The notes beneath the pieces were generated by a model that had not been told where the DNA came from, made no database searches, and worked only from the letters and a program-made list of their open reading frames with translations. Below are positions 6,134-25,427 of a stretch of DNA of 64,000 bases, piece by piece. The position numbers were made by a program, and so were the translations under genes. Each line of letters starts with the position of its first letter. Within the stretch, counting starts at the first letter, position 1. Location: contig DYIU01000003.1 in NCBI GenBank assembly GCA_020723485.1, positions 310,001 to 374,000 on the forward strand, read 5' to 3'. This DNA is from Acidimicrobium ferrooxidans. GTDB lineage: Bacteria > Actinomycetota > Geothermincolia > Fen-727 > Anoxymicrobiaceae.

Positions 6134-7255
6134 ATGAAAAAGGTAACGATCGTAGGCGCGGGTCTTGCCGGCCTGACGGCCGCCGTCATCCTGGCCCGCG
6201 AGGGCCATGAGGTCACGGTCCTCGAGCAGGAGAAGGCGGTCGGCGGCGCCTCTCTGCACGCCTCCGAGGTCGCCGGGCACGAGGTCTGCGTCGCGGACAT
6301 GACCCCGCTGGACCCCGATGCCATGGGCAGGTACCTGGGGTTCGGGCTTACCGTCGAGGAGGGCTCCGACCCGCTGCCGTTCTACAACCCCCTGCCCTGC
6401 CTGCGGTTCCACTTGTTCGGCAGGACCAAAGAACTCGCCCTTCCCGGCGACGTCCACATGAAGATGGTAGAGCGCGGGGCCCGCCCCTCCTCCATCGACA
6501 TGTATCTCTACCGCCTGGCGGCCGATTCGGGGGTCGAGTTCTCCTTCGGCTCGCCGGTGCGAACGCGCAAGGAGTTCGGCGACCTCCCGCCCGGCACGAT
6601 AGTGGCCACCGGCATGTTCCGGGAGGCGTTCGAAGCGCTCGGCATCCCGTACACGAAGGCCTACGGGCATTTCGCCTCCGGTCCGGCCCCCGAGGACCGC
6701 AGTCCGTTCTGCGTCGCCTACTACGACGAGCATACCCGCGACTACGCCTACTACGCGACGGCCAACGGCGTCGGCGCCGCCGTCCTGTTCCAGAGGGGCA
6801 AGCCCCTCACCGCCGCGGCCCTCGACTGGTTCCCGAGGCAGCTATTCGCCGACGAGGGCATAGAGTTCAGCGACTGGCACACCATCGAGAACCTCGTGGG
6901 CACCCCCACCGGCTCATTCTCCAACCCGCGGCTCTTCTCCGGGCCTCTCGTCCTGGCGGGGACGCTCGCCGGCATGCAGGACCCCAGCATGGTCCTGGGA
7001 GTGCACGGCGCCCTCGTCTCGGGCAGGATAGCCGCCATGGCAGTGACCGACCGCGAGGGAGCGATGAGGGAGTTCCACCGCATGAACCGGTGGTGGAGGC
7101 TCGCCTACCTCACGCGCAGGCTGCTGTGGGCCACGCACCCCTGGGGGCCCCGGACGCTCATCCCGGTCGTGCTCGGCCTCGTGCCCCACGTGGACCAGCG
7201 GTTCCTGTGGCTGCTGAACCCGGCGGTGCCCGGGTGGATGCGCCTGCCGAAATGA
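6134..7255 (+). CDS. NAD(P)/FAD-dependent oxidoreductase
   Basis: 373 residues from ATG 6134, chosen because GGGGAGGAG lies just upstream and the dinucleotide-binding fold starts at once. Residues 1-35 form the beta-alpha-beta nucleotide fold with GAGLAG (8-13) and the terminal acidic ELEQ-like residue in VLEQE. The rest resembles FAD-dependent amine oxidase/phytoene-desaturase-like proteins. I cannot assign the substrate. The stop overlaps the start of the M48 peptidase gene by four bases (ATGA), so the two are translationally coupled. Confidence 0.75.
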   Translation: MKKVTIVGAGLAGLTAAVILAREGHEVTVLEQEKAVGGASLHASEVAGHEVCVADMTPLDPDAMGRYLGFGLTVEEGSDPLPFYNPLPCLRFHLFGRTKELALPGDVHMKMVERGARPSSIDMYLYRLAADSGVEFSFGSPVRTRKEFGDLPPGTIVATGMFREAFEALGIPYTKAYGHFASGPAPEDRSPFCVAYYDEHTRDYAYYATANGVGAAVLFQRGKPLTAAALDWFPRQLFADEGIEFSDWHTIENLVGTPTGSFSNPRLFSGPLVLAGTLAGMQDPSMVLGVHGALVSGRIAAMAVTDREGAMREFHRMNRWWRLAYLTRRLLWATHPWGPRTLIPVVLGLVPHVDQRFLWLLNPAVPGWMRLPK

Positions 7256-8187
7256 GGATCGCGAAGAGCAGCGGCCTGGAGCCGCAGGTAATAGAGTGCA
7301 TCAAGCACTACCGCCGCCGGGCCTTTGCGCTGCGCGCGGGCGCGGCGTGCGTGCTGATGGCCGCGGTCATCGCGGCCCTGGCAGTATATGTCGTCAAGCT
7401 TGCCGGACTTGCCGGAGAAGGAGCCACGCACCCCGCCGGCGCCGGGCCGTGGGTCGCCCTCGGGGTCGTCGCTGCAGCGCTCGCCCTGGCGGTAATGCTC
7501 ATCGACCCCGGGATAATACCGGTGGTCTCTCCGAAAAGCTTCGACTCGTTCAAGGACTTCGGGAACGCCCTGGAGGGCGTGAGCATCGCGGCGGGCATCG
7601 AGCCCCCGCGGCTGCTGGCGACGGACCTGCCGACGGCCAACTCCATCTCTATCAGGTACTCCGGCAGGCCCGCGGTCGGGGTGACGACCGATGCCCTGCG
7701 GGCGGGGCTCTCCCCCCGGCACGCGGAGGCCATGATGGCCCACGAGGTGTCCCACATACTCCTGGGCGACGTGGTGCTCGACACCAGCACGCGCCGGTGG
7801 CGGCTGGTCGGCCTGTCGCTGGTCGCGGCGATCGTGCTCCCGTTCGTCTTCCTCTCCCTGGCTTACGGGTTCGGCCCGTGGATCTACATAGGGCTGGTGG
7901 GCTGGACGGTCTTCACCGTGGTCCTCATCAATGTCGCGGGGAGGCAGGTGTTCCGCCAGAACGACCTCCTGGCCGACTCGGTGGCCGCGAAGATGACGTC
8001 CGACCCCGGCGCCATCAGGGAAGCGATAGTCCGGCTGGACAAGATGTTCCGTGAGAACGAGAAGCCGTTCACCCCCGGCGTCCGCTACCCCATGGCCTTC
8101 TTCGTCAGCGACGCGGGAGAGGAGACCGCGGAGCGCATAAAGAACCTCGAGGCGATAGAGCGCGGCCACTGGATGGAATTCGAGTAA
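7252..8187 (+). CDS. M48-family membrane metalloprotease (HtpX-like)
   Basis: 311 residues. Hydrophobic segments lie at about 28-54, 66-90 and two more at about 178-222. HEVSH at 164-168 is the zinc-binding HExxH. The family's third ligand is normally Glu in a motif like RExxAD, but here the matching stretch reads QNDLLADS, so Asp occupies that position. HtpX-type proteases degrade damaged membrane proteins. The ATG overlaps the upstream stop (ATGA), and the gene converges on the zinc-ribbon gene across a set of small hairpins. Confidence 0.8.
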   Translation: MRIAKSSGLEPQVIECIKHYRRRAFALRAGAACVLMAAVIAALAVYVVKLAGLAGEGATHPAGAGPWVALGVVAAALALAVMLIDPGIIPVVSPKSFDSFKDFGNALEGVSIAAGIEPPRLLATDLPTANSISIRYSGRPAVGVTTDALRAGLSPRHAEAMMAHEVSHILLGDVVLDTSTRRWRLVGLSLVAAIVLPFVFLSLAYGFGPWIYIGLVGWTVFTVVLINVAGRQVFRQNDLLADSVAAKMTSDPGAIREAIVRLDKMFRENEKPFTPGVRYPMAFFVSDAGEETAERIKNLEAIERGHWMEFE

Positions 8188-8202
8188 TAATCGAAGCCGA
8201 CC

Positions 8203-8279
8203 GTGGCGCCGACCTCTGGTCGGCATGTCCGTAGCGCCGACCTCTGGTCGGCAGTGATGGAGCCGGCCGGAGGCCGGCG
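8203..8279. terminator. hairpin cluster between convergent genes
   Basis: Two copies of GCGCCGACCTCTGGTCGGCA (about 8206-8225 and 8234-8253) each fold as CCGAC-CTCTG-GTCGG. A third GC-rich hairpin, GCCGGCC-GGAGGCCGGC, ends at the neighbouring stop codon. No U-tract is present. Because the cluster fills the gap between the M48 gene and the leftward zinc-ribbon gene, it probably stops or insulates transcription from both sides. Confidence 0.6.
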
Positions 8280-9392
8280 TTACGTGGGGGTGACGGTGAA
8301 GGAGACGACGCCGGGGCGGGTCTTCTCCCAGGTGACAGCGCTCTTCTTCTTCTCGAGCGCCTCGTAGAGCCCCTGGAACGTGCCGGCGAGGATGTTCGGC
8401 TCGTACGGGTTCTCGACCACGAGGCTCACCGAGCCGTCGTGCATCTCAAACTTGACCGGGTTCCCGTACCCGTACAAGGGCAGCATCTTGAGGTAGTCAC
8501 GGTAGGCGGCCTCGAGCTCCTCCATCGAGAGCGGCCCGTCCCCACCGGAGAGCCCCAGCTCCCCGACGTTGTCGATGGTCCAGTCCTTCTGCGCCTCGAC
8601 CATGAGGTCGTATATCTCCTCTCCCAACTCGCTCGCGAGCTCGCGGAAGACGGTCTTTATCATGTATCCGTCGAGGAAGATGACGCGCGCGCCGGTCCGC
8701 GTGTCGACTATCGTCCCCTCGCTCTCCATCCATTTGAGCGAGTTGGCGAGCGCCCAGGGCACCTTGCAGCGCGGGCACCTGTCGAACTGCAGGTTCCCGG
8801 GCAGCGGCGTCTCGTACTCGATGCTCAGCCGCTCGGATATCTCCGGCTTCTCCCCCGTTGCCTCGATATGAACGAGGTAGGTGCCGCCGGGCTCCTTCTC
8901 CCATTCTTGAGAGAACGGGATGCCCTCGAGCGACTCGAACGCCCCGACGACGTTCGCCGACATCAGGTCCATGTTGAACGGGTTCTTGAAGCGCGCGACC
9001 CCGATGCGCCCCGGGACGTACTCGACGGTCTCCGAGTAAGCCATGCCCGTCAACACGCCCACCTTGTGGAAGAACTCGACCGAGATGCGCCTCACGAACT
9101 TGAACTTGAGGAACAGGCTCGTGCCCGGCAGCTTGTTCTTGAACGCGTCGAAGGTTGCCTTGCTGGCGTTGCGCTGGGCCTCGAACGCCAGGTGCTCGAT
9201 GGAGATGCCTATCTTGGACTCGATGTTGGAGAAGAGGTTTTCCAGAAAGCCGTGGTGCAGGATGACCACGCGGAAGTTCTTGCGCATGAGCTGGACGACC
9301 GTGCCGTTGTCCTGCCACTTGATGAAGCCGCCCACCAGGCGGGGGAACCCGCACTCCCTGCACCTGATCATCATCCTGGCCTTCTTCGCCAT
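8280..9392 (-). CDS. uncharacterised double zinc-ribbon protein, paralogue of 52565-53641
   Basis: 370 residues, no signal peptide, unknown function. A CxxC pair opens the protein (CRECG) and another occurs near residue 208 (CPRC). After each pair comes a similar block: a Trp, a Gly-[ST/D]-[IV]-V turn, then a helix-rich stretch (LFSNIESKIGIS...EAQR in half 1; TVFRELASELGEEI...EAQ in half 2). The protein thus looks like an internal duplication. The gene at 52565-53641 has the same two-half layout, including the SELGEEI motif. Start is ATG 9392, with GGTGG upstream. Confidence 0.7.
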   Translation of the reverse strand: MAKKARMMIRCRECGFPRLVGGFIKWQDNGTVVQLMRKNFRVVILHHGFLENLFSNIESKIGISIEHLAFEAQRNASKATFDAFKNKLPGTSLFLKFKFVRRISVEFFHKVGVLTGMAYSETVEYVPGRIGVARFKNPFNMDLMSANVVGAFESLEGIPFSQEWEKEPGGTYLVHIEATGEKPEISERLSIEYETPLPGNLQFDRCPRCKVPWALANSLKWMESEGTIVDTRTGARVIFLDGYMIKTVFRELASELGEEIYDLMVEAQKDWTIDNVGELGLSGGDGPLSMEELEAAYRDYLKMLPLYGYGNPVKFEMHDGSVSLVVENPYEPNILAGTFQGLYEALEKKKSAVTWEKTRPGVVSFTVTPT

Positions 9393-9531
9393 CTGAGTAC
9401 CACCATCCCGTCCAGGCCGCCGGCGTCACTTGCACCGTTCATTTTATCACCGACCCCGGTAAATCAAGCAATTCAGCCACGGATAATGATTCCCCGGTAG
9501 AAAACGCTAGCCGTTTCCCTACACAGGGGAA

Positions 9532-9553
9532 AGGCCCCCGTTTCCAGGGGCCT
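9532..9553 (-). terminator. Rho-independent-like terminator of the 9590-11212 gene
   Basis: Read leftward, AGGCCCC-TGGAAACG-GGGGCCT forms a GC-rich stem about 40 bases beyond the stop codon at 9590. It is followed by TTCCCC, a weak pyrimidine run rather than a clean U-tract. Confidence 0.6.
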
Positions 9554-9589
9554 GTCCTGTCAGCCAGCTTCCGGCGTTGTGCCGGTTCC

Positions 9590-11212
9590 TTACTCTCCTA
9601 CCCCGAGCGAGCTGTGCCCGCCCACGATGCCGTTGTACTCGAAGTACATCGCGCGCTCGGCTATGATGCCGTACTCGCAGGCAGCCGCGCGGCCTTCGCC
9701 CTCGACCGGGCCCAGCACCTGCAGCTTGGTCGAGACCTCGGCCGACTCCAGGCCCTCTATCCTGTCGACCGGGATGGTGAGCCTGCTCATCGTGGAGACC
9801 GGGTACTCCCGCACGATGGGCTCCCCCTCAGGCGTCATGAAGGTGACCTTCACGTTGACGTCGTAGGCGTTCGGGTTCTGGATGAGTATCCAGGTGTCGA
9901 ACGCGCCCTTGGTGTAGCCCTCGGCGAGCAGCCAGTACTCGTGCTTGGTCGTGGCGCCGACGCTCTCGTGGCCGTCGCCGTTGTTGCCCCGGGTGAAGTA
10001 GACCGCCCGCTCGACGACCACCGGGTTGCAGTAGCCTCCGCCGCTCTCCCCCGCGCCCTCGCCATCGACCGGCTCGGCCCAGGACTCGATCATCGTCGAG
10101 ACGTCGGTCGCCTCGAGGCCTTCGACCTGGTCGAGAGCTATTGTGTAGCGCTCGAGCGGGTCCACCACGAACTCCTTCGTGACCACGCTGTCGGGCACGG
10201 GCTCGGGGTCGGGCTCCCACTCGGGCGGGTCCTCCACGTAGGGGTTCGCCTCACGCGCGCCGGTCCCGGCGCCCTCAGCCGGCACCATGAACGTGGCCTT
10301 GACGTGGGTCGCGGTCGAGTTCGGGTTCATCACAGTCACGTAGGTGTCGTATTCGCCGGCGGTGCGCCCCTCGGGCAGGTACCAGACGTTGGAGGGGTAC
10401 GGCGCCCCGATGGAGCAGTGCCCGCCGTTGATACCGAAGTAGGTGAAGTACATGGCCCGCTCGCAGACCACCCCGGGGACGGTCTCCTCCTCTATGGCCG
10501 CGTCACGGCCCGCGCCCTCCTCGGGCGGGTCCGCCGACTCCACGAACACCTCGGTGCTGACCTCCGCGTCCTCTAGACCCTCAACCTCGTCCACGTGGAT
10601 GGTGAAGCGCCTGTTGGCGTCCACCTTGTACTCCTTCACTATATACTGCGGCTCGACGGCCTCTCCCCCGGCGCCCCCGAGCGCCGGCTTGATGAACTTG
10701 GCCTTGATGTTGACCGCCACGTCGTTCGGGTTCATCACCAGGATGTAGGTGTCGAACTCGCCCCCGGTGTAACCCTCGGCCAGGTACCAGCTCCGGGAGG
10801 TCTGGTTCGCCCCCATGGAGTTGCTGCCGCCGGCCTTGCCGCCCTCGTACTTGAAGTACATCGCCCGCTCGACCACCACCCCGCTCGAGGTGTTGACCAT
10901 GGTCGAGACGTGAGAGTCCTCGAGGCCGGGCTGCTCGTCCACCGAGATGGTGGTGCGCGAGTTGGGCCCGAGCTCGTAGGTGACCGGCTCCGTGACCGAA
11001 TCCTCGGTCATGAAGCGGACCGAGGCCTCGGCATCCCAGTCATTCGGGTTCTGGATGGTCACCCAGGTGTCGAAGTTACCGCCCGTGTAGCCCTCGGGCA
11101 GGTACCAGTTGCCGAAGCCGCACGCATGGGCCCCGGCGGGTAGAGCGATGACCAGCAAGGTCGAGATCATGAGTGCTGCTATGAATACTGCGATAAACCT
11201 TCTTGCCGCCAT
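9590..11212 (-). CDS. secreted protein made only of four repeat modules
   Basis: 540 residues. A signal peptide (about 1-31) is followed directly by four modules beginning near residues 36, 142, 275 and 415. Each starts W(Y/L)L(P/A)EG and has the FDTxxxxxNPN and ERAMYF/ERAVYF signatures. Modules 2-4 carry Gly/Glu-rich inserts (PEEGAG, DGEGAG, VEGEG) just before the ERAMYF strand, which accounts for their greater length. No transmembrane or LPXTG anchor is seen at the C-terminus. This is the simplest member of the five-protein family. The function is unknown; a cell-surface or wall-binding role is inferred. Start is ATG 11212 with AAGGGGG upstream. Confidence 0.8.
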   Translation of the reverse strand: MAARRFIAVFIAALMISTLLVIALPAGAHACGFGNWYLPEGYTGGNFDTWVTIQNPNDWDAEASVRFMTEDSVTEPVTYELGPNSRTTISVDEQPGLEDSHVSTMVNTSSGVVVERAMYFKYEGGKAGGSNSMGANQTSRSWYLAEGYTGGEFDTYILVMNPNDVAVNIKAKFIKPALGGAGGEAVEPQYIVKEYKVDANRRFTIHVDEVEGLEDAEVSTEVFVESADPPEEGAGRDAAIEEETVPGVVCERAMYFTYFGINGGHCSIGAPYPSNVWYLPEGRTAGEYDTYVTVMNPNSTATHVKATFMVPAEGAGTGAREANPYVEDPPEWEPDPEPVPDSVVTKEFVVDPLERYTIALDQVEGLEATDVSTMIESWAEPVDGEGAGESGGGYCNPVVVERAVYFTRGNNGDGHESVGATTKHEYWLLAEGYTKGAFDTWILIQNPNAYDVNVKVTFMTPEGEPIVREYPVSTMSRLTIPVDRIEGLESAEVSTKLQVLGPVEGEGRAAACEYGIIAERAMYFEYNGIVGGHSSLGVGE

Positions 11213-11472
11213 CAGAAAACCCCCTTTCCAAAGTCTGCCAGCGTTCCTGCATGCTCTACTGTTTATCGTCGATGGGTGCCTGCTTGCTTACGTTTTTGGG
11301 AGATAATCTTCAGCGGATTGGGGAAAATACTCAGAACGGGCTAAACAGGCTCGGCGCCGAGGGTTAGTCCGCCCTCCCCCGTTTCCCCGCCCACCATTAA
11401 GGAGGCTTTGTACGTAGGAGTCGGCCGTTGCGAGTGGTAATATATCCCCCAAACAACCAAGGGGTGGTGCAA

Positions 11473-12038: not shown

Positions 12039-12710
12039 TTGGACATAACGCTAATCACCGCCCGCGACATCCCCGACGCCTGGTTCCAGTGCATCTGGGA
12101 GGTCATGGAGAAGGGCCGCGAGTACACTATCGACCGCGGCTCCTACGAGGGCCAGAAGCGCCGCGAGTTCGAGTTCGTGGTGGTGCGCATCACCCACCCC
12201 GAGGCGCGCCCCCTGGTCCCCACCATGCCCGAGGGCTCGAGCCTGCCTCCCCCCACCGACATGGAGTTCGTCAACCGGTACCTGGAGAAGCTGGTCGACT
12301 CCTACTCGAAGGCCGAGAACGAGGACTACACATACGCCGACTACCTGGAGCCGCAGATCCCCGAGGTCATCAAGATGTACAGGGAGGACGGCTTCGGCAC
12401 CAACCAGGCGTGCATGGCCGTCTGCGACTCGCAGGCAATCCTGCTCGGCGACCCCCCCTGCCTGCGCCAGGTCGACACCCGCATCTGGCCCGACGAAAAG
12501 AAACTCCATTTCATCCTTTACTTCCGCTCCTGGGACCTCTGGGGCGGCTTCCCCTCCAACCTCGCCGGCCTCCAACTCCTCAAGGAGTACATGGCCGACG
12601 AGATCGGCCATGGCGTCACCCCCGGCGAAACCATCGCCGTCAGCAAAGGCCTGCACCTCTACGACATGTACTTCGAGGTGGCTAACCTCAGGTTGGGGCG
12701 AACACCTTAA
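12039..12710 (+). CDS. thyA: archaeal-type thymidylate synthase (ThyA family)
   Basis: 223 residues, close to archaeal TYMS length and shorter than the 264-residue E. coli enzyme. It makes dTMP from dUMP with methylenetetrahydrofolate as methyl donor. Cys141 in GDPPCLR fits the catalytic Cys. RSWDLWGGFPSN (163-174) is the dUMP-binding counterpart of RSxDxxLGxPFN, and HLYDMY (206-211) is the conserved His-Tyr motif. The start is TTG 12039 with AAGGAG upstream. No dihydrofolate reductase is adjacent. The family call is by motif; catalysis is inferred. Confidence 0.85.
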   Translation: MDITLITARDIPDAWFQCIWEVMEKGREYTIDRGSYEGQKRREFEFVVVRITHPEARPLVPTMPEGSSLPPPTDMEFVNRYLEKLVDSYSKAENEDYTYADYLEPQIPEVIKMYREDGFGTNQACMAVCDSQAILLGDPPCLRQVDTRIWPDEKKLHFILYFRSWDLWGGFPSNLAGLQLLKEYMADEIGHGVTPGETIAVSKGLHLYDMYFEVANLRLGRTP

Positions 12711-12867
12711 ATCTACGATTCCGTTCAACGCCTAGGAGTAAATGGTGATGGCTCTGGTTTGTGACCTCTCCCTTCTTTGACATAAAGAAAGTAGAATGTT
12801 CCTGGCAGCATACGATCTCTGAGTGTAGGGGCGTAAACCCATTCGTGATTGGAATAGGTGATTTGTG

Positions 12868-15800
12868 ATGGCCCCATTGGCAGCGGTGTCAGTACCTGAA
12901 GCACTGAAGGACTTCGCCAGGACAGTAACGGGTAAGTTTAAAGTCCAGGTACCAGGGGACCCGGAGGATCAACTTAGGGCACCAATTGAGACCTTTCTGA
13001 AGGCCTCCGGATCAGCGATGAGTGAAGCTGTAGTTCCAAAAGGCGAATCGCAAGCCGAAAGGATCGGGCGGCCCGATTTCGCTGTCACGGCCAAAGGCCT
13101 CCTTATTGGCTACGTCGAGCTAAAGGCTCCCGGAAAGGGAGCAGATCCCAAATACTTCAAAGGGCACGACAAGAAGCAGTGGGACCGTTTCCAGTTGCTA
13201 CCCAACATTATCTACACCGACGGCAACCAGTGGGCGCTGTACCAGCGGGGGTCACTCGTTGACAACCGAGTCACTCTCCACGGTGACGTTGCCAAGAGCG
13301 GAGTCCGCGCCATTAAGGACGATGACGCCTCCCGGATCGAGGATATGCTCCGGAAGTTCTTCTCGTGGCGACCTATCGTTCCCGAATCTCCAGGGCAGCT
13401 CGCGCGCCAGTTGGCACCGCTCTGCCGCCTACTCCGTAACGAGGTTCGCGAGCAGCTTGATGACTCCGACTCCGTTGTCTCTCGGCTCGCTGGCGAGTGG
13501 CGAGAGCTACTCTTCCCAGGCGCCAGTGACGATCAGTTCGCAGACGAGTACGCGCAGACAGTAACGTATGCCCTGCTTTTAGCTCGCGCTGAGAACACAA
13601 GCACTTTGGACATACATAAAGCAGCGGACTCTCTTCGACCACGTTTTACACTGATTGCGAAGGCTCTCGAAGTTCTAACGCAAGATCAGATTCGAAGAGA
13701 AATCCCAACACCGCTCGACATGCTCCAGAGGGTCGTGAACGAGGTCAAGCCCGAGGTCCTTGCCGAAAAGACAGAGGATCCCTGGCTCTACTTCTACGAG
13801 GATTTCCTCACCGTGTATGATCCCAAGCTGCGCAAGGACATGGGGGTCTATTACACGCCGTTACCAGTCGTGCGTGCTCAGGTCCGACTAGTTGACGAAA
13901 TACTGCGAGAGAAGATAGGGAAGAAGCACGGGTTCGCTGACTCGAACGTCACCACGCTCGATCCAGCGGTGGGAACGGGGACATATCTTCTTGGAATCAT
14001 CGAGCACTCTCTTGAACGGATAGGCAAACCTGCAAAGGAGGGTGGCCTCGGGCCAGGAGCGGTACCTGCGAGGGCAAGCGAACTTGGTGGTAACCTCTTT
14101 GGCTTCGAGATAATGGCTGGCCCATATGCCGTGGCAGAACTACGGGTCGCTCAGCAGCTTGAGGCCTATAAGGCCACTCTGCCACCAGATGCCCCGAACA
14201 TTTATCTGACAGACACTCTTGAGTCGCCGTACACAATACCGCCTGCGCCCAAGCTCTTCTACGATGATATTGCGCGCGAGCATGAGAAAGCCCTCAAGGT
14301 GAAAGAGTCTGTACCTGTGCTCGTATGCATCGGCAATCCACCGTACGATCGCCACCCAGCCAGTGGCACGCGCGCTCGTACCGGCGGGTGGGTGCGCCAC
14401 GGTGATGAAGGTGATCCAACCAGTGTGCCGATTCTTGAATCCTTCCTGAAACCGGTTCGCGACGCCGGCAAGGGCGGCCAACTCAAAAACATCTATAACC
14501 TCTATGCATATTTCTGGCGGTGGGCTCTTTGGAAGGTGTTCGAGCACAATGTTATCGATGGACCCGGAATCGTGTCTTTTATCAGTGCCGCGTCTTATCT
14601 TGAAGGCGACGCTTTTACTGGCATGAGGGAGCACATGCGCAGAGTCTGTGACGAGATTTGGATAATCGACCTCGGGGGTGAGAACCGGGGTCCACGAAAG
14701 AGTGAGAATGTCTTTAATATCCAGACCCCTGTAGCAATCGCTGTTGCTGTCAGATACGGGAAGACGTCGAGCACCGAACCGGCCCAAGTGAGATATACGA
14801 GGGTCGAAGGCAGCCGAGAAGAGAAGTACGAAGAGCTTGAAGCTATTGCATCGTTCGCGAGTCTCAAGTGGAAGAAGTGCCCGTCGGGCTGGCCTGATCG
14901 CTTTCGTCCAAAAGGCAAAGGTGATTTCTTCAGTTGGTCGGAGCTCATTGACCTATTCCCTTGGCAACATTCTGGTGTTGAACCGACACGTACGTGGCCT
15001 ATTGCTGTAGACGAAGATACGTTGCGTCGGCGGTGGAAGGCGCTGGTCTTTTCCTCCGAGCAAGCCGAGTTGTTTCAAGAAACCAGAGATAGGAAAGTTG
15101 ACAGAGAATATCTATCAGTGCAAGGAACCGCGCGACTCCCCGCATTGGCAACACTTAAAGAAGATGCGGGGATGGAAGCCCCAATACGATATGCACTTCG
15201 TTCTTTGGATCGTGAGTATATAATTCCCGATGGCCGTTTGATCACATGGTCTCGGCCAGCCTTATGGCACGCTCATAGCCGTAGGCAAATCTACTTAGCC
15301 AGTTTGTTAACTACCGTGCTTGGTAGTGGACCAGCAGCAATGGTGGCGGCAGATCTGCCGGACAGGCATTATTTCTCTGGCAGAGGGCAAAGAGACATAG
15401 TCCCACTATGGCGCGACTCTGCGGCAACAAAACCGAATATAACTCCTAGGCTACTTACGAAGCTCAGCGACATCTATTGCGAGGATGTCTCTCCCGAAGG
15501 CTTCATCGCATACTGCTACGGAATCCTTTCCCATCCACAGTACACCGAGAGGTTTGCATCTGAGCTCGAAAGTAGCGGCCCGAGGTTACCTCTCACGAAG
15601 GATGTGAACCTGTTCAACGAAGCCCGAGATCTAGGACGGCGGTTAATTTGGTTACATTCCTGGGGCGAACGCATGGTGCCCAAGGATAAGAAGACGGGCA
15701 TCGTTCCTCCAGGTCAGGCAGGCTGCCAGCGAGCGATCTCAGACGACCCTGAAAATTACCCCGAGGCCTTCAGCTTTGAAGCTTCCACGGAAACCTTGGT

Positions 15801-16242
15801 TGTCGGTGAAGGGAAGGTAGCGCCGGTGCCGATAGCTGTATGGGGATATGAGGTTTCTGGCCTCAAGGTGCTTGGCTCGTGGTTGTCGTATCGGATGAAG
15901 AATCCCTCCGGAAAGAAGAGTTCACCTCTCGACAGAATTGGCCCTGAAAGGTGGACCACCGAAATGACGGAAGAACTCCTGACTCTTTTATGGATTCTCG
16001 AACACACTATCGAAGTCAACAAACAGCAGGCCGTCGTACTTGACTCTGTTGTTGCTGGACCGGTTTTCACAGCTAATGAGCTTCCAAAGCCAAGGCCAGA
16101 GGATCGTGAGCCTCCTGGCGAACACGAGGCCCCGAAGAAAGGGAAGGCCGCGCTGAAGGAAGTCCTCCATCCAGATGCGATGTTCGAAGATGGACTACTC
16201 AGCGCGGATGTAGTTGAGGAATACGGGGGCAGAGAAGACTAA
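12868..16242 (+). CDS. restriction endonuclease-methyltransferase fusion with Type ISP C-terminal domain
   Basis: 1124 residues. Residues 30-130 hold a PD-(D/E)xK-like nuclease (RPDF at 68-71, VELK at 83-86). The central N6-adenine methyltransferase has motif I DPAVGTG at 365-371 and catalytic NPPY at 490-493. The C-terminal region (about 960-1090) matches the Type ISP specificity domain: SPLDRIGPERW, then TEELLTLLWIL and GPVFTANELP. Canonical Type ISP enzymes such as LlaGI carry a helicase between nuclease and methyltransferase; none is present, so this should act as a Type IIG-like single-chain enzyme. ATG 12868 has AGGTG seven bases upstream. Lower GC marks the start of the defence island. 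Confidence 0.85.
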   Translation: MAPLAAVSVPEALKDFARTVTGKFKVQVPGDPEDQLRAPIETFLKASGSAMSEAVVPKGESQAERIGRPDFAVTAKGLLIGYVELKAPGKGADPKYFKGHDKKQWDRFQLLPNIIYTDGNQWALYQRGSLVDNRVTLHGDVAKSGVRAIKDDDASRIEDMLRKFFSWRPIVPESPGQLARQLAPLCRLLRNEVREQLDDSDSVVSRLAGEWRELLFPGASDDQFADEYAQTVTYALLLARAENTSTLDIHKAADSLRPRFTLIAKALEVLTQDQIRREIPTPLDMLQRVVNEVKPEVLAEKTEDPWLYFYEDFLTVYDPKLRKDMGVYYTPLPVVRAQVRLVDEILREKIGKKHGFADSNVTTLDPAVGTGTYLLGIIEHSLERIGKPAKEGGLGPGAVPARASELGGNLFGFEIMAGPYAVAELRVAQQLEAYKATLPPDAPNIYLTDTLESPYTIPPAPKLFYDDIAREHEKALKVKESVPVLVCIGNPPYDRHPASGTRARTGGWVRHGDEGDPTSVPILESFLKPVRDAGKGGQLKNIYNLYAYFWRWALWKVFEHNVIDGPGIVSFISAASYLEGDAFTGMREHMRRVCDEIWIIDLGGENRGPRKSENVFNIQTPVAIAVAVRYGKTSSTEPAQVRYTRVEGSREEKYEELEAIASFASLKWKKCPSGWPDRFRPKGKGDFFSWSELIDLFPWQHSGVEPTRTWPIAVDEDTLRRRWKALVFSSEQAELFQETRDRKVDREYLSVQGTARLPALATLKEDAGMEAPIRYALRSLDREYIIPDGRLITWSRPALWHAHSRRQIYLASLLTTVLGSGPAAMVAADLPDRHYFSGRGQRDIVPLWRDSAATKPNITPRLLTKLSDIYCEDVSPEGFIAYCYGILSHPQYTERFASELESSGPRLPLTKDVNLFNEARDLGRRLIWLHSWGERMVPKDKKTGIVPPGQAGCQRAISDDPENYPEAFSFEASTETLVVGEGKVAPVPIAVWGYEVSGLKVLGSWLSYRMKNPSGKKSSPLDRIGPERWTTEMTEELLTLLWILEHTIEVNKQQAVVLDSVVAGPVFTANELPKPRPEDREPPGEHEAPKKGKAALKEVLHPDAMFEDGLLSADVVEEYGGRED

Positions 16243-16312: not shown

Positions 16313-18319
16313 ATGCCTCAGGAAGGTAATCCCGGCAAGTATCGGATGAAGATCTCCAGGCTGACTATCGACAAGCTTGGAATACAGCTATATGACAAGG
16401 TCTGGGCTGTAATGGCGGAGTTGATCGCCAACTCTTACGACGCTGATGCCACGAAAGTGGTTATAACACTTCCCTTCAACGAGTGGTTGGCTGCGAAGTC
16501 GGGTGGCGAAACGGTTGACCTCGGCCGAGAAATAACAATAGAAGACGACGGCCAGGGGATGACCGCTTCAGAGGTCAATGAGTTCTACCTCCGAGTTGGT
16601 ATTAACCGTCGGGCACGCGGTGAGACGAGTCCGAAGGGCCGGAAAGTGATGGGCAGAAAGGGGATTGGCAAGCTAGCACCTTTCGGAATATGTAGGGAAA
16701 TCGAGGTTATCACTGCGGGTGGCGAGCCTGATAGTGAAGGCACGTATGAAGTCTCGCACCTTGTGCTTCAGTATGACGGGATACTCACTGATGAAGAAAC
16801 GGATTACGAACCGGTTGTAGGTGAACTAGATGGGACAAGAAAGGAAGCCACCGGGACGAAGATAATTCTGCGAGATTTCGACCGCCGCAAAGTTCCATCG
16901 GCCGAAGACCTCCACCGTAGGCTCGCCGCCCGGTTTGGACTAAGACAAACCGATTGGAGAGTAGAGGTAATAAACAGTGAAGACGCAGGAGATAGTTTTG
17001 AGGTTGGTACACTCCCGATTGATTTACTAGATGGAACCAAGATAGATGTGGATGATCGACCGGTAGTAATGGAAGATGGGTCGAGATTGAACGTCACGGG
17101 GTGGGTCGCATACGCAAAGGACCCTTATAAAGATGAGGCAATGGCAGGTATCAGGGTGTTTGCTCGCGGAAAGCTGGTTGCACAGCCAAGAGATTTCGAT
17201 ATCCATTCTGGTTTCACTGGCGAATTCAAGATGCGTAGTTACGTTGTTGGTGAGGTCCAGGCAGAGTGGTTGGATGAGGGAGACGAAGATCTTGTCCGGT
17301 CAGATCGACAAGACATTATCTGGAATTCTGACAAGGGAGATGCCTTCCGGAAATGGGGACAGGAGCTTATCCGCGAATTAGCCAGACGGGCCGAGGCATC
17401 GATTCAGAATAGGACATGGGAGGATTACCTCGAAGCATCGGGGCTTGAAGACATGCTCAAGGGAACCGTGGGTGAGTTTCAATCCAGCATAGAGAATGCC
17501 GCCAAGTATCTCGTTCGCCGGATTGACAGGGATGCATTGAAAGACCCAGATTATGTTGGACGGATTACGAGTTTTGCGCTGGCCATAGGCCCACATAGGA
17601 CACTTCTCGATGCGCTGCAGAAAGCGGCTGATGAGACCAACACCTCTCTGGAAACAGTACTAGACCTATTCGAGAAAGCGCGAATTGCCGAAATGTATTC
17701 CCTTGGACAAGTTGCGCGTGAACGGGTCGATGCGGTTCAAAGGCTGATGCAGCTGATAGATAAGACAGAAACCCTTGAGCGCGAACTTCAGCAGCTTATC
17801 GAAGAGGCACCCTGGATTCTGCATCCAGACTGGACGCCTTTGAGCAAGAACCAGACGCTGGAGCGCGTTAGGGCGGCTTTTCAAAGTTGGTATAAGAAGA
17901 GATTCGGGGAGGACATTGCCACATCCGCCATCAACAACCCTGGCATGAGGCCTGATTTCATCCTGCTAACGGAAGAGGGTCAGCTTGAGATTGTCGAGAT
18001 AAAGAAACCTGGCCATGCACTTAACGACGAGGAGATGGAACGTGCATACAAATACTTGGAGAATCTGAGGCAGTTTCTCGACGAGAATGCCGACTTGAGG
18101 GCAGCTTTTCCCCGGTGCCGCCTGACCATTGTCCGCGACCGTGATGATTTCAAGAAAGCTACGTCGGGTGGTGCTTGCAAGGACGATGACGTTCGGGCAA
18201 GAACATGGGAGGAAGTGATGAACTCCACAATGCGGGCACATGAGGATTACATCGCGGCTATCAAGACATTGGATGCGTTGAAACCGGAGCAATCAACTTC
18301 GGAGAAGGAAGACGGGTAG
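16313..18319 (+). CDS. GHKL ATPase fused to a Shedu-like PD-(D/E)xK nuclease
   Basis: 668 residues. The N-terminal GHKL (Hsp90/MutL/MORC-type) ATPase shows the N-box [10 protein letters not shown] (36-45), G1 box DDGQGM (78-83) and G2 box GRKGIGKL (114-121). The C-terminal 150 residues carry EEAPWIL, then RPDF (Asp548) and EIVEIKKPG (Glu562, Lys564), the PD-(D/E)xK pattern of DUF4263/Shedu-type nucleases. The two parts together suggest an ATP-gated DNA-cleaving dimer. GHKL ATPases are known partners of C5 methyltransferase/Vsr restriction operons (MORC-related systems). AGGAGG precedes ATG 16313. It sits 70 bases after the fusion enzyme and 31 before the C5 methyltransferase, so it is probably in the same operon. 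Confidence 0.82.
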
Positions 18320-18350
18320 TCGCCCGCAAATCACTTTCATGAGGAATCCT

Positions 18351-19460
18351 ATGTCGCGAAACGGAAGCGAAGGTGACATCACTGCCAGAGCCAAGCCCGT
18401 AGCCATCGACTTGTTCTCTGGCAGCGGAGGGCTCACCTGGGGCCTGCGGCAAGCAGGCTTTGACGTATTGGCAGCAGTCGAGATTGATTGCGCCGCAGCA
18501 TCCACTTACAAGTGGAACAACCGCAAGACTCACCTAATCCGAAGGGACATCAAGAGTGTTACCGCTGGAGAAATACGGAGGACAGCGGGGAGTAGGAAAT
18601 TCGATCTGCTAGCGGGTTGCGCTCCATGTCAGGGTTTTTGTTCACTGACGTCAAAGTGGAAGCGTGAAGATAAACGCAATGAACTGTTGATGGACATGGG
18701 GAGACTTATCGAAGCAATTAAGCCAACCGCCGTCATGATGGAGAATGTGCCTGGAATTGTTACAAGAGGAAAAGCAATCTTCGAAGAATTCCTTGAGGTA
18801 TTGGACAACCTTGGATACGTTGCGAAATGGCGAATCGAGCAAATGGCCGACTTCGGTGTACCTCAGTATAGGAGACGGTTGGTTCTTCTTGCTGGACGTG
18901 GCTTTGAAATACCATTGCCGGAAAAGACGCATGCTCGGATACCTGGCGAGCAGTCTGGTCTGCTACCTTGGGTTACAGTTCGACAGGCAATCGGTGGTAG
19001 AACTGCACCGGTCACATTGTCATGCGCGAGAAAGAATGGTGGGCCACAGGTACACGATTGGCATGTTGTGAGTGATCTGCAGCAAAGGACGAAAGCGCGT
19101 CTGCGAGCGGCACTACCTGGTGAGACGTGGTTGAGACTGAGCGAATCGATAAGACCTACTTGTCACCAAGGTGAATACCAAGGTTTCACAAATGTATATG
19201 GTCGGATGGAATGGAATGCTGTGTCGCCGACAATCACAAGTGGCTGCACTACCCCATGCAAAGGCAGGTTCGGCCACCCTGATCGACGTCGTTACACTAT
19301 TTCAGTGCGAGAGGCTGCGCTGCTGCAGACATTTCCGGATAACTATCGTTTTGCGACTGATTCCATTGAAGCTGCTTGTGAGATGATTGGCAATGCTGTT
19401 CCGCCTGTGTATGCAAAGATTGCGGGGCGGCAGTTGTTACGTGCGATCTCAAGCCAATGA
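18351..19460 (+). CDS. DNA (cytosine-5-)-methyltransferase
   Basis: 369 residues. Motif I is [12 protein letters not shown], motif IV carries the catalytic Cys in GCAPCQGF, motif VI is MMENVPG, motif VIII is [11 protein letters not shown] and motif X is [11 protein letters not shown]. It would methylate cytosine in a specific site, protecting host DNA or marking it. ATG 18351 is preferred over ATG 18339 because GAGGA (18341-18345) is correctly spaced only for the later start. The stop overlaps the Vsr-like start by four bases. The target sequence cannot be read from the protein. Confidence 0.93.
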
Positions 19461-19927
19461 CAGGTTTATCGCAGATGAAATCTTGGCCTGGTGATTCTGG
19501 CAAGGAAATTACCGCTTTTGGCGGACTTTCGCGTGGACAACTCATGTCTCGTATTGCTAGTAGTGGTAACAAGACAACGGAAAAGCGACTTGAAGAACTG
19601 CTTGAAGAGTCAGGAGTGCCTGCGTGGTGCAATGGGAGTTCTCTGCCTGGTCGACCGGATTTTGTGTGGCCGCAACACAAAGTGGTAGTGTTTGTCGACG
19701 GTTGTTTTTGGCATGGACACGATTGCGGCAAGAACATTAGCCCACAGACAAACAAGACCGAATGGCAGGCTAAAATTGAAAGTACACGACGAAGAGACCG
19801 GAGGGTTTCAAGGATTCTCCGGGAAGATGGCTGGCATATTGTTCGCATATGGGAGTGCCGCCTCGCGAAGAGCCCGGCGACTTGCGTTAAGCGGATTACG
19901 AATATGCTTGAAGACCAAGTAGCCTGA
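19457..19927 (+). CDS. Vsr-type DNA mismatch/very-short-patch endonuclease
   Basis: 156 residues. Typical Vsr motifs are present: [38 protein letters not shown] and WHIVRIWEC. Vsr cuts next to T:G mismatches left by deamination of 5-methylcytosine, and in many restriction operons a Vsr-fold protein is instead the restriction nuclease. Coupling to the C5 methyltransferase by an ATGA overlap supports either role. Compared with classic Vsr, an extra 30 residues precede the MSRI block. Confidence 0.9.
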
Positions 19928-20270: not shown

Positions 20271-21371
20271 CTATTCTTCCCTATAGTAGGGCTCTGCGAT
20301 TTCCGCAATGAAACTTGATTTTAAATGAGGAATTACATCCTCTACTTCTCGTACTTTCTCTCGTAAGGATGAATACGAAATATACTGGCAGCATTCAGAT
20401 AGAGGTGGCTTCAGCTTGGCAAATGTTGGTCTTAGGACTTCCTCGGCAACCTTTTTGCGTCTCTTATCAGGAGCAACAATATATAGACTTATATTGACAT
20501 TTGGTTGCATTGAAATGAGGTCAGACATTCGGAGAAGACCACTATAGATCGCAGTTGAATGCTCAATCTCGAATGCTGCAACAATTGCTTTATCAGCCAA
20601 CCAAAGGACATCGATGTTTTGAATCGTTTTGTTTGTTGCTTCATCAAAATGCATAGGAGGCTTGGAAACGCTCAGTTCGCCTAGACGCTTACCTCTATAT
20701 GTCTTGTTCTTATCTCCCCTAGCAACATGAACATCTAGTCCAAGATCCTTGCCAAGCTTGAGTAGAACCCACTGAATCTCAACGTGAGCCCTTTCTTCCT
20801 TTTCCTCATCCTCACAAACTGGTGTTTCTGCCTCATCTGGGATGGTGACCTCGAGGCTGCCAGCCTGATAGGTCTTGGGAGGAATGGGTATCCGTCTATA
20901 TTTCTTCTCGTCATACGGAATCGGCTTGGGATTGGCTTCAGCATCTCTTAGAGCTGCGATAACGATCTCTGCATCTTCAGCTTTCTCTCTGGCAGGGGAA
21001 CCTCTAAAATGGCCGGACCAAAGGTGCGGATTTTTCAGGTTCTGGAAGTATGACAGTTTGTCTCTAAGACTCAGAACGGGTACAGCGTTTTCGGGAGAGA
21101 GCTGGATAAGTGGTTTGACAGGAAACCGCCAGGGAAACGCCTCCCTCGACCAAATCCTAGTCTGATCATCGTAATAGACTGGCCCCGCCACTTCTAATAG
21201 GCCAATCCAGCGCGAAATCCCCGTGACATAGCACAAGAAGTAATCTCCAGGTTTGATCTTCTGCACCACCTTCTCGCGCGACTGCCTGAAACCACTGACC
21301 GAACTTCCAGCGGCTACGAATTCATCCCAGGTGTTTCCGGTGAAGAGGTCCAACCAATAATTGATCGCCAT
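20271..21371 (-). CDS. EVE-domain protein with C-terminal nuclease-like domain
   Basis: 366 residues. Residues 1-140 form an EVE (PUA/YTH-like) domain: INYWLDLFTGNTWDEF, then VSGFR and KIKPGDYFLCYVTG, with SRWIGLLEV. EVE domains bind modified bases in DNA or RNA. The C-terminal half has IQNIDVLWL followed by AAFEIEHS and SGLLRMSDL. The Asp and the Glu-x-Glu fit a divergent PD-(D/E)xK restriction fold, although the usual Lys is absent. A modified-DNA-dependent nuclease is inferred. ATG 21371, preceded by GAGG, is preferred to TTG 21383. It faces the C5 methyltransferase/Vsr operon. Confidence 0.75.
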   Translation of the reverse strand: MAINYWLDLFTGNTWDEFVAAGSSVSGFRQSREKVVQKIKPGDYFLCYVTGISRWIGLLEVAGPVYYDDQTRIWSREAFPWRFPVKPLIQLSPENAVPVLSLRDKLSYFQNLKNPHLWSGHFRGSPAREKAEDAEIVIAALRDAEANPKPIPYDEKKYRRIPIPPKTYQAGSLEVTIPDEAETPVCEDEEKEERAHVEIQWVLLKLGKDLGLDVHVARGDKNKTYRGKRLGELSVSKPPMHFDEATNKTIQNIDVLWLADKAIVAAFEIEHSTAIYSGLLRMSDLISMQPNVNISLYIVAPDKRRKKVAEEVLRPTFAKLKPPLSECCQYISYSSLREKVREVEDVIPHLKSSFIAEIAEPYYREE

Positions 21372-21520
21372 AAGTTGCCTCAATCTCGCGTGTACTTTCT
21401 ATACATATATTACTACAGCTGGAAAGAGCGCCAACGCAAGGCAATTCTTATGCTCATCTATTCATGAGTCGACTCTTGGAAGAAGTGAGTACTGAATGGC
21501 CATAATGCACGACAGTGGGC

Positions 21521-23102: not shown

Positions 23103-24245
23103 ATGGCTCGATACATCTGGCAGGGCAGTCTATGGCCCAGCTTCAAATGGAACAGTGAACGACTGCTGCACCCCCTGGGGGAAGCAAGAAAGGCCCAGGG
23201 GAAGATTCTTGGCCTCGCCGAGTTCTTTGAACTCGAAACCCAGGCGGATGTTATCACTGAAGAAGCGGTCACAACGGCCGCGATAGAAGGTGAAAAACTC
23301 GACCGTGCAACGGTGCGTTCTTCGGTGGCTCGCAGGCTGGGCTTGCCTTCAGCTGGACTTCCACCGACACAAAGGCATATAGAAGGTCTGGTTGATATGC
23401 TTATAGACGCGACTCAGAATCATGCGGATGCTCTTACCGCCGAACGGCTCAAGGGGTGGCAGGCTGCCTTGTTTCCAACCGGATACTCCGGGATAACCAG
23501 AATCATCACCGGGGATTGGCGCAGCGGTGACGAGCCGATGCGAGTCGTGTCCGGCCCAATCGGCAAAGAAACGGTTCACTATGAAGCTCCACCCGCGGCT
23601 GGCGTCGATTCCATGATGAGCGAATTCCTGGAATGGTTTGCCACCCCGCAGGCTAACCTGGACGGCCTGGTGCGCGCCGCTGTAGCTCATTTCTGGTTTG
23701 TGTCCATCCACCCTTTCGAGGATGGGAACGGCCGAATAGCCAGGACCATCGCGGATATGGCTCTCGCTCAAGACGAGAAGACAGATTGCAGGATGTACAG
23801 TATGTCGGCCCAGATCGAAATCGAGCGCGATGACTATTATGAAGTCCTGGAACGAAATCAGAAGGGCAACGGCGACATCACGGAATGGATGGTCTGGTTT
23901 CTGGAATGTCTCAGGCGGGCGATCCAACGGTCAGAGGCTGAAGTTCAAAAAGCGGCGGACAAAGCCAGGATGTGGCAGGAGCTGGCCTTTCTGGATCTTA
24001 ACGAACGTCAGAAAAAAGTGATTAACAGGCTCCGTGAGTCTGGCGAGGGCGGGTTCGAGGGAGGTCTGACCACTCGCAAGTATATGGGAATGACACATAC
24101 AAGCCGGACGACAGCCAAACGCGAGATAGCAGATCTCATAGTAAAAGGTCTTCTATTAAAGAACCCGGGCGAAGGAAGAAGCACAAGCTACAGACTATCC
24201 TGGCGAGAGGGTGCATCCCCACCTGCCAATCCAGGCGCTCGATAA
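23103..24245 (+). CDS. Fic-family protein with N-terminal inhibitory helix and C-terminal winged helix
   Basis: 380 residues. Fic enzymes transfer AMP (or other nucleotide phosphates) onto target proteins. The active motif HPFEDGNGR is at 203-211. The inhibitory motif (S/T)xxxE(G/N) is at 58-63 (TAAIEG), so the protein is of the intramolecularly inhibited class II. The N-terminal 90 residues match the DUF4172-like Fic partner domain. The C-terminal 80 residues look like a winged helix (TRKYMGMTHTSRTTAKREI). AGAGG precedes ATG 23103. It converges on a second Fic gene. Confidence 0.9.
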   Translation: MARYIWQGSLWPSFKWNSERLLHPLGEARKAQGKILGLAEFFELETQADVITEEAVTTAAIEGEKLDRATVRSSVARRLGLPSAGLPPTQRHIEGLVDMLIDATQNHADALTAERLKGWQAALFPTGYSGITRIITGDWRSGDEPMRVVSGPIGKETVHYEAPPAAGVDSMMSEFLEWFATPQANLDGLVRAAVAHFWFVSIHPFEDGNGRIARTIADMALAQDEKTDCRMYSMSAQIEIERDDYYEVLERNQKGNGDITEWMVWFLECLRRAIQRSEAEVQKAADKARMWQELAFLDLNERQKKVINRLRESGEGGFEGGLTTRKYMGMTHTSRTTAKREIADLIVKGLLLKNPGEGRSTSYRLSWREGASPPANPGAR

Positions 24246-24329: not shown

Positions 24330-25427
24330 TTACTTCTGGAACAGGTTCACGTACCAATCGAAACGGTATCGTCTGTCACGCGAGCGCCCGGTTATCTCCG
24401 TGATCGCTCCCATGGCCTCGAGTCTCTCCACCGATTTCGCGGCTGTCGCGAAACTCGAGTGGGTTCTGTCAGCCACATCGCCCACGCTCATGATGGGATT
24501 GACGAAGAAAGCCTCCAGGGCCAGGCGATCGCGTGGACCGGCTCCTTTTTTGGCCGAGATCTTGTTCTCCAACTCCTCCCGGAGGCTCTCGACCTGGCGC
24601 GCGGTGGCGATTGCCGAATCGCTCACCACTTTGACCCCATCACAGAAGAATTCCAGCCAGGACTCCCAATCCCCATCGTCTCTTATCCCCGTCAGCCGGC
24701 CATAGTACTCCTGTCTGTTCTCCAGCAGATAATGGCTCAGGTAGAGGAGCGGCAAGTCCAGTGAACCGCGGCTGCAGAGCAGCATGGTTATTAGCAGTCG
24801 TCCCATCCTGCCGTTTCCGTCGCCGAAGGGGTGGATGGTCTCGAACTGGGCATGAGCAATGCCGGCCTGTATGAGGGGCGGGAAGCTCTGGTCGTGAAGG
24901 AATTTCTCGAAGTTGTCGAGTGGTCCTCGCAGGTCACCTGGAGGCGGCGGGTAGAAGACACCGCCGACCACGACTTGATGGTTTCGGAACTCGCCCGGCG
25001 TTCTATCCTCGCCTCGCACCCCCTTGAGCAATACTGAGTGTATCTCCCTGATTAACCTGAGAGACAGGGGCAGCTCGTTGAGCCTCTCCAGCCCGAACAT
25101 TATGGCATCGACGTGCCTCACAACTTCGCGGGCGCTCTCACGTGATAAATCCCCCGCCTCGAACCTGAGCAGGTCGTCAAGCGTGCTCTGGGTACCCTCG
25201 ATCTGCGAACTCAGGACCGCTTCCTTCTTGACGTACATACTCATGAACAGTTCCGGGTGAGGGAAGGTCCGGGTTGCTTCGGCCAGGCGCCCAAGCGCTG
25301 CGCTGGAGTCGGCAAGCGCCGTCACGAGCCTTTCGTTGTAGGCCACTGGGGGATTCGGTGGCAGCGGAGCAGGAATGAAGAGATTGAACCTGCCCCGCCG
25401 TTCGTAATGGCCTGCCCTGCCGTTCAA
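24330..25427 (-). CDS. second Fic-family protein, class II
   Basis: 365 residues. The catalytic HPFGDGNGR is at 199-207 and the inhibitory SSQIEG at 73-78. The N-terminus fits the Fic/DOC N-terminal domain, and the C-terminus carries a winged-helix-like block (MSVGDVADRTHSSFATAAKSVERL). It differs from the neighbouring Fic protein in most positions, so this is not a recent tandem copy. The start is TTG 25427 with GGAGG seven bases upstream. It is expected to AMPylate, or regulate transcription of, an unknown partner. Confidence 0.9.
   Translation of the reverse strand: MNGRAGHYERRGRFNLFIPAPLPPNPPVAYNERLVTALADSSAALGRLAEATRTFPHPELFMSMYVKKEAVLSSQIEGTQSTLDDLLRFEAGDLSRESAREVVRHVDAIMFGLERLNELPLSLRLIREIHSVLLKGVRGEDRTPGEFRNHQVVVGGVFYPPPPGDLRGPLDNFEKFLHDQSFPPLIQAGIAHAQFETIHPFGDGNGRMGRLLITMLLCSRGSLDLPLLYLSHYLLENRQEYYGRLTGIRDDGDWESWLEFFCDGVKVVSDSAIATARQVESLREELENKISAKKGAGPRDRLALEAFFVNPIMSVGDVADRTHSSFATAAKSVERLEAMGAITEITGRSRDRRYRFDWYVNLFQK

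Follow-up and report, generated by a model that had tools for sequence, protein, structure and literature searches.

Within the window analysed here (the whole 64,000-nucleotide stretch of DNA), the gene at 16,313–18,319 on the + strand encodes a protein, R, that we read as the restriction endonuclease of a type II-like operon comprising a GHKL nuclease, a C5-cytosine DNA methyltransferase (M) and a Vsr endonuclease (V). We put the probability of this reading at roughly 77%. R is a single unbroken frame of 668 amino acids. M begins 20 bp downstream (18,339–19,460, +; 373 aa) and matches PF00145 (E 1.2e-55) and TIGR00675, with motifs I, PCQ, ENV and QxRxR intact. V (19,457–19,927, +; 156 aa) shares 4 bases with M and is identified as a very-short-patch-repair endonuclease by TIGR00632 (1.8e-29, above its cut-off), PF03852 and motifs conserved in 13 Vsr proteins. 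Catalytic motifs are intact in R, M and V alike, and a whole-genome search of the source genome (95% complete) found M as its sole C5-methyltransferase. The methyltransferase and Vsr genes that follow directly make a restriction-modification endonuclease the most likely identity for R, ahead of a stand-alone Shedu gene. The first-pass annotation had recognised the two domains of R and its likeness to Shedu, both of which hold up, but it was aware of no characterised protein with the pairing and missed the genes beside it.

R is laid out as a GHKL ATPase, an S5 domain, a helical linker and a Shedu-type PD-(D/E)xK nuclease, as judged from profile matches (NF050001, HATPase_c_3 and SduA_C), hhalign comparison with Shedu and a full-length AlphaFold model (pLDDT 84). 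The ATP-binding domain spans approximately residues 10–195 (16,340–16,900, +) and matches HATPase_c_3 in Pfam at E 7e-20. It carries the complete GHKL set: the N-box (E36/N40/D43), G1 (D78xGxG82), G2 (G114xKGxGK120) and motif IV (T182). The N-box, G1 and G2 boxes of an Hsp90/MORC-type ATPase were rightly called from the letters alone, and N40, D43, D78, G80, G82, G114, K116, G117, G119 and K120 proved invariant in 48 homologues. An S5-like transducer domain follows at approximately residues 197–356 (16,901–17,380, +; limits approximate), placed by AlphaFold secondary structure and conservation and marked by conserved K287, D326 and R332; in the model it matches the corresponding modules of MORC2/3, SMCHD1 and MutL. 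The modelled GHKL-S5 head as a unit resembles MORC2, MORC3, SMCHD1, Hsp90 and MutL in Foldseek searches (E 1e-8 to 1e-12). R shares GHKL and S5 folds with the MORC, MutL and Hsp90 ATPases, but their C-terminal domains are unlike its own, and the nuclease of MutL has another fold. The helical linker occupies approximately residues 357–483 of the AlphaFold model (17,381–17,760, +).

The C-terminal part of R (approximately residues 489–656; 17,777–18,280, +) is, on sequence comparison, a Shedu-type (SduA_C) PD-(D/E)xK domain, with E489..LQ..PW501, D548 and E562-x-K564 as its conserved landmarks. The first-pass annotation had placed Asp548, Glu562 and Lys564 of the segment RPDF...EIVEIKK in a Shedu-like setting, and this is borne out. 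D548 and E562 are invariant in 48/48 homologues and K564 is kept in 47/48; with E489 (31/48), the tail of R presents an E-D-ExK set. The Pfam SduA_C model scores R just below its gathering score (25.9 versus 27 bits; E 1.3e-5) and matches 27 of 44 relatives at E ≤ 0.01. When a profile of the tail was aligned with 10 true Shedu domains, all from genomes in its own phylum, hhalign gave a probability of 98.1% (E 1e-13), with E..Q, D and ExK conserved, while a negative-control profile of Vsr, another restriction-fold family, reached 0.3%.

It is this profile comparison that carries the Shedu-type assignment, the Foldseek evidence for the fold being weak on its own. The best PDB matches of a separate tail model (pLDDT 83) are mostly PD-(D/E)xK enzymes (EcoO109I, AspBHI, BspD6I, BbvCI, NucS, MspJI and Shedu 8ti9), none with E below 0.02. 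Comparison with MORC and Shedu structures, proposed along with the original call, was accordingly clear for the head and weak for the tail. Among sequence searches of the PDB, the nuclease profile found NucS as its best match (E 0.07, not significant), and R as a single sequence returned no matches. The prospect that the tail might lack a PD-(D/E)xK fold nonetheless runs against the strong Shedu profile match and the negative Vsr control. R thus shares a nuclease domain with Shedu SduA; its N-terminal part differs from that of SduA, and it has a methyltransferase neighbour. At one homologous locus, L086 (7001–8866), the active site of the nuclease reads ExM in place of ExK (ILELMRPG), and that enzyme may lack activity or rely on a different residue; the corresponding stretch in L013 is EFMRPG.

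R is homologous, on profile evidence, to the restriction enzymes that NCBIfam names the BbrUII/HgiDII family (NF050001), although it lies outside the named equivalog. The match runs across residues 10–653 (E 2.9e-78) but scores 264 bits, short of the curated equivalog cut-off of 550. All 14 members of the set A1 match NF050001, and PADLOC matches R best to a model for type II restriction enzymes. A tree of 77 homologues places R in a fully supported clade of 38 rows, set apart by long branches from the 15-row clade that holds the over-cut-off members. Both the score and the separate, long-branched clade count against the restriction-modification reading. R is accordingly counted as a family member at the level of the superfamily: real, well formed and divergent. 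It shares with the BbrUII/HgiDII enzymes its length, the full-length profile match, a C5-methyltransferase neighbour and a GHKL domain combined with a C-terminal nuclease; over-cut-off members at L004 and L019, in contrast, are only 25–27% identical to it. R.HgiDII and R.BbrUII are SalI-like restriction enzymes, as the family name also conveys. For M.HgiDII, 5mC methylation of GTCGAC is on record (PMC5867850). The methyltransferases of the family members are 36–39% identical to M, and GTCGAC is not established as the site of R.

The pairing of a GHKL ATPase with a Shedu nuclease, of which the first-pass annotation knew no characterised example, was in fact predicted in 2008 and put to the test in a relative in 2025; paraMORC3, VcSduA and the BbrUII/HgiDII family all have this combination. 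Iyer, Abhiman and Aravind predicted paraMORC3 to be a GHKL-S5 ATPase with a C-terminal restriction-fold nuclease, compared it with MutL, and described its genes as linked to cytosine methylases and Vsr, with stand-alone copies as well (PMC2292703). The GHKL-S5 head, the restriction-fold tail with E-D-ExK and the cytosine methylase and Vsr neighbourhood all recur in R. The R locus differs in having no helicase gene, and the clade of R is mainly from Actinomycetota, Chloroflexota and Gemmatimonadota, whereas the bias reported in 2008 for paraMORC3 was towards Proteobacteria/Bacteroidetes. Phage PhiR44_1 encodes a homologue that lies beside Dcm, was deposited under the name ParaMORC3 and scores 751 bits on NF050001, and PGAP assigns identical proteins encoded on E. 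coli chromosomes to the BbrUII/HgiDII family; paraMORC3 and BbrUII/HgiDII are therefore overlapping names for one superfamily. The more recent example is VcSduA from V. cholerae, a GHKL Shedu protein of type I-D in which an N-terminal GHKL ATPase is joined to a C-terminal DUF4263 PD-(D/E)xK domain (PMC12137116), and to which R is likened by architecture. The same study presents VcSduA as a system of one gene that works independently (PMC12137116); that stand-alone arrangement is not found here, where R instead runs with M and V.

These relatives suggest how the operon most likely works. M would mark host DNA at its own site and so protect the chromosome. On binding ATP, R would dimerise through its GHKL heads and a clamp would close round DNA, after which the paired Shedu-type domains would cut DNA that lacks the mark of M; both the clamp and the sensitivity to methylation are extrapolated from relatives. 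Vsr would repair the T:G mismatches that arise when 5-methylcytosine is deaminated at the site of M. By analogy, R is probably gated by ATP-driven clamp closure. It is reasonable to model the nuclease as gated by ATP in this way given the support for it in VcSduA, in which the E27A and K557A substitutions each abolish phage defence and which has been modelled as an entwined dimer containing a clamp-like cavity, its ATPase being proposed to control the nuclease (PMC12137116).

The genomic context of R is conserved among its homologues. Loci were drawn from plasmids, phages, viral contigs and genomes, and 154 were counted as having at least 1.2 kb of flank on each side. A C5-methyltransferase lies within 1.5 kb in 127/154 and Vsr is near in 41/154; these are not independent events, as the set contains near-duplicates. 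Single-sequence scans of genomes and viral contigs found no R homologues, which were recovered by alignment-based scans. M and V find their nearest common kin at the same two loci, L084 and L093 (M 63–66% and V 53–55% identical), and on that account look like one module that seems to travel as a unit, R being the part that is exchanged. The nearest kin of M overall (60–66%) accompany nucleases that are only 26–28% identical to R. Conversely, R is 60% identical to the nuclease of L052 and 50–54% identical to those of L020–L026, L040 and L074, while M is 25–31% identical to methyltransferases of the L020/L052 type and 36–41% identical to those of a Streptomyces type. Nucleases 50–60% identical to R pair with at least three types of methyltransferase or, in Nocardia, with none nearby. 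Such close relatives with unrelated partners, or with none adjacent, count against a simple matched pair of R and M. The mismatch could reflect scattered substitutions in R, or different methyltransferases that share one site.

This exchange of partners bears on how the specificity of R follows its partner. R might act as a type I-D, VcSduA-like nuclease that senses invader DNA by itself, with the methyltransferase and Vsr modulating or protecting rather than setting the target. Its Shedu-type nuclease domain would fit such a role, and VcSduA defends with no methyltransferase reported (PMC12137116). At 16 Nocardia loci (L027–L039, L069, L075 and L085) a protein 49–52% identical to R has no adjacent methyltransferase, its motifs being intact in those aligned; at two of the loci the adjoining genes were checked and are not methyltransferases. 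Nor does any coherent block of R follow the type of methyltransferase: when R proteins paired with the M type seen here were compared with equally distant ones lacking it, z was 2.6 at most, and such values came only from isolated stretches of 30 residues out of more than 40 compared. Against this stand the recurrence of the methyltransferase beside most homologues and the gap of only 20 bases between R and M here. Every Nocardia genome tested also holds at least one unlinked C5-methyltransferase, so a split system acting in trans is possible there and a solo nuclease is not proven. On balance we consider a self-sufficient R unlikely. More doubtful still, as a tentative generalisation, is the idea that GHKL-Shedu proteins are methylation-licensed clamps rather than classical site-readers, in which an ATP-driven dimer scans DNA and what is spared is set by the mark of the partner methyltransferase instead of by a recognition domain in the nuclease. 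If this were true, one clade of nucleases could swap unrelated methyltransferases, as with the three types seen at 50–60% nuclease identity, and a nuclease could persist with none adjacent, as in Nocardia.

Two further readings fare far worse. A MutL-like role in methylation-directed repair, in which R and Vsr would jointly serve very short patch repair and not restriction, draws on the MutL-like head, the adjoining Vsr gene and the interaction of E. coli MutL with Vsr (cited in PMC2292703). It is highly improbable: Vsr is found at far fewer homologous loci than the methyltransferase, the nuclease domain is of Shedu rather than MutL type, and the homologous genes are carried on plasmids, prophages and viral contigs. 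The other would tie R functionally to the gene upstream (12,865–16,242, +, complete), which encodes a type ISP/IIG-like enzyme of 1125 aa and ends 71 bp before R on the same strand. This protein already has its own N-terminal nuclease motif (PDF..VELK), an N6-methylase and a Type_ISP_C specificity domain; family scans found no helicase region in it. No homologue of it was found in any of approximately 175 R-homologue loci, whereas the methyltransferase recurs, and we rejected it as a partner of R, the least credible of the readings considered. The restriction-modification reading is favoured because of the full-length NF050001 match, the adjacency of methyltransferases across homologues, the status of M as the only C5-methyltransferase found in the genome and the shared kinship of M and V. 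The intact motifs, the setting of R in a low-GC island with other restriction genes and the requirement of VcSduA for both active sites (PMC12137116) favour it as well.

The R locus is in itself an ordinary defence locus. What the analysis adds is a bridge that brings together the BbrUII/HgiDII enzymes, the paraMORC3 ATPases known from prediction and, on grounds of architecture, the Shedu proteins of GHKL type. Two questions thereby become open to direct testing: does a GHKL clamp driven by ATP control a restriction enzyme that is type II-like, and how does such an enzyme keep pace when its methyltransferase partner changes?

Some homologous loci depart from the arrangement of one nuclease gene and one methyltransferase. 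L041–L043, L045–L047, L055 and L073 each have one C5-methyltransferase, often together with Vsr, and two different GHKL-nuclease genes that flank or accompany it; the paired products may be the two subunits of a restriction enzyme whose site is asymmetric. L061, from an uncultured Cenarchaeum, has tandem GHKL-nuclease genes (6683–8743 and 9011–11,236) with no C5-methyltransferase detected nearby.

The region of the window from 12 to 26 kb has a GC content of 45–59%, against 62–69% in its surroundings, and holds other restriction genes; such a trough around R is what an acquired defence island would be expected to show. No clear element boundary emerged from the repeats and tRNAs nearby. Just upstream of the island lies a gene for a thymidylate synthase-like protein (12,039–12,710, +; Pfam E 8.5e-9 in its C-terminal part). 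Downstream of V, the product of 20,271–21,383 (−) combines an EVE (PUA-like) domain with a C-terminal match (residues 197–342) to one of the PADLOC models for type II restriction enzymes and is a candidate modification-dependent restriction enzyme. At the edge of the island, two convergent genes (23,103–24,245, +, and 24,330–25,427, −) encode two different Fic-domain proteins.
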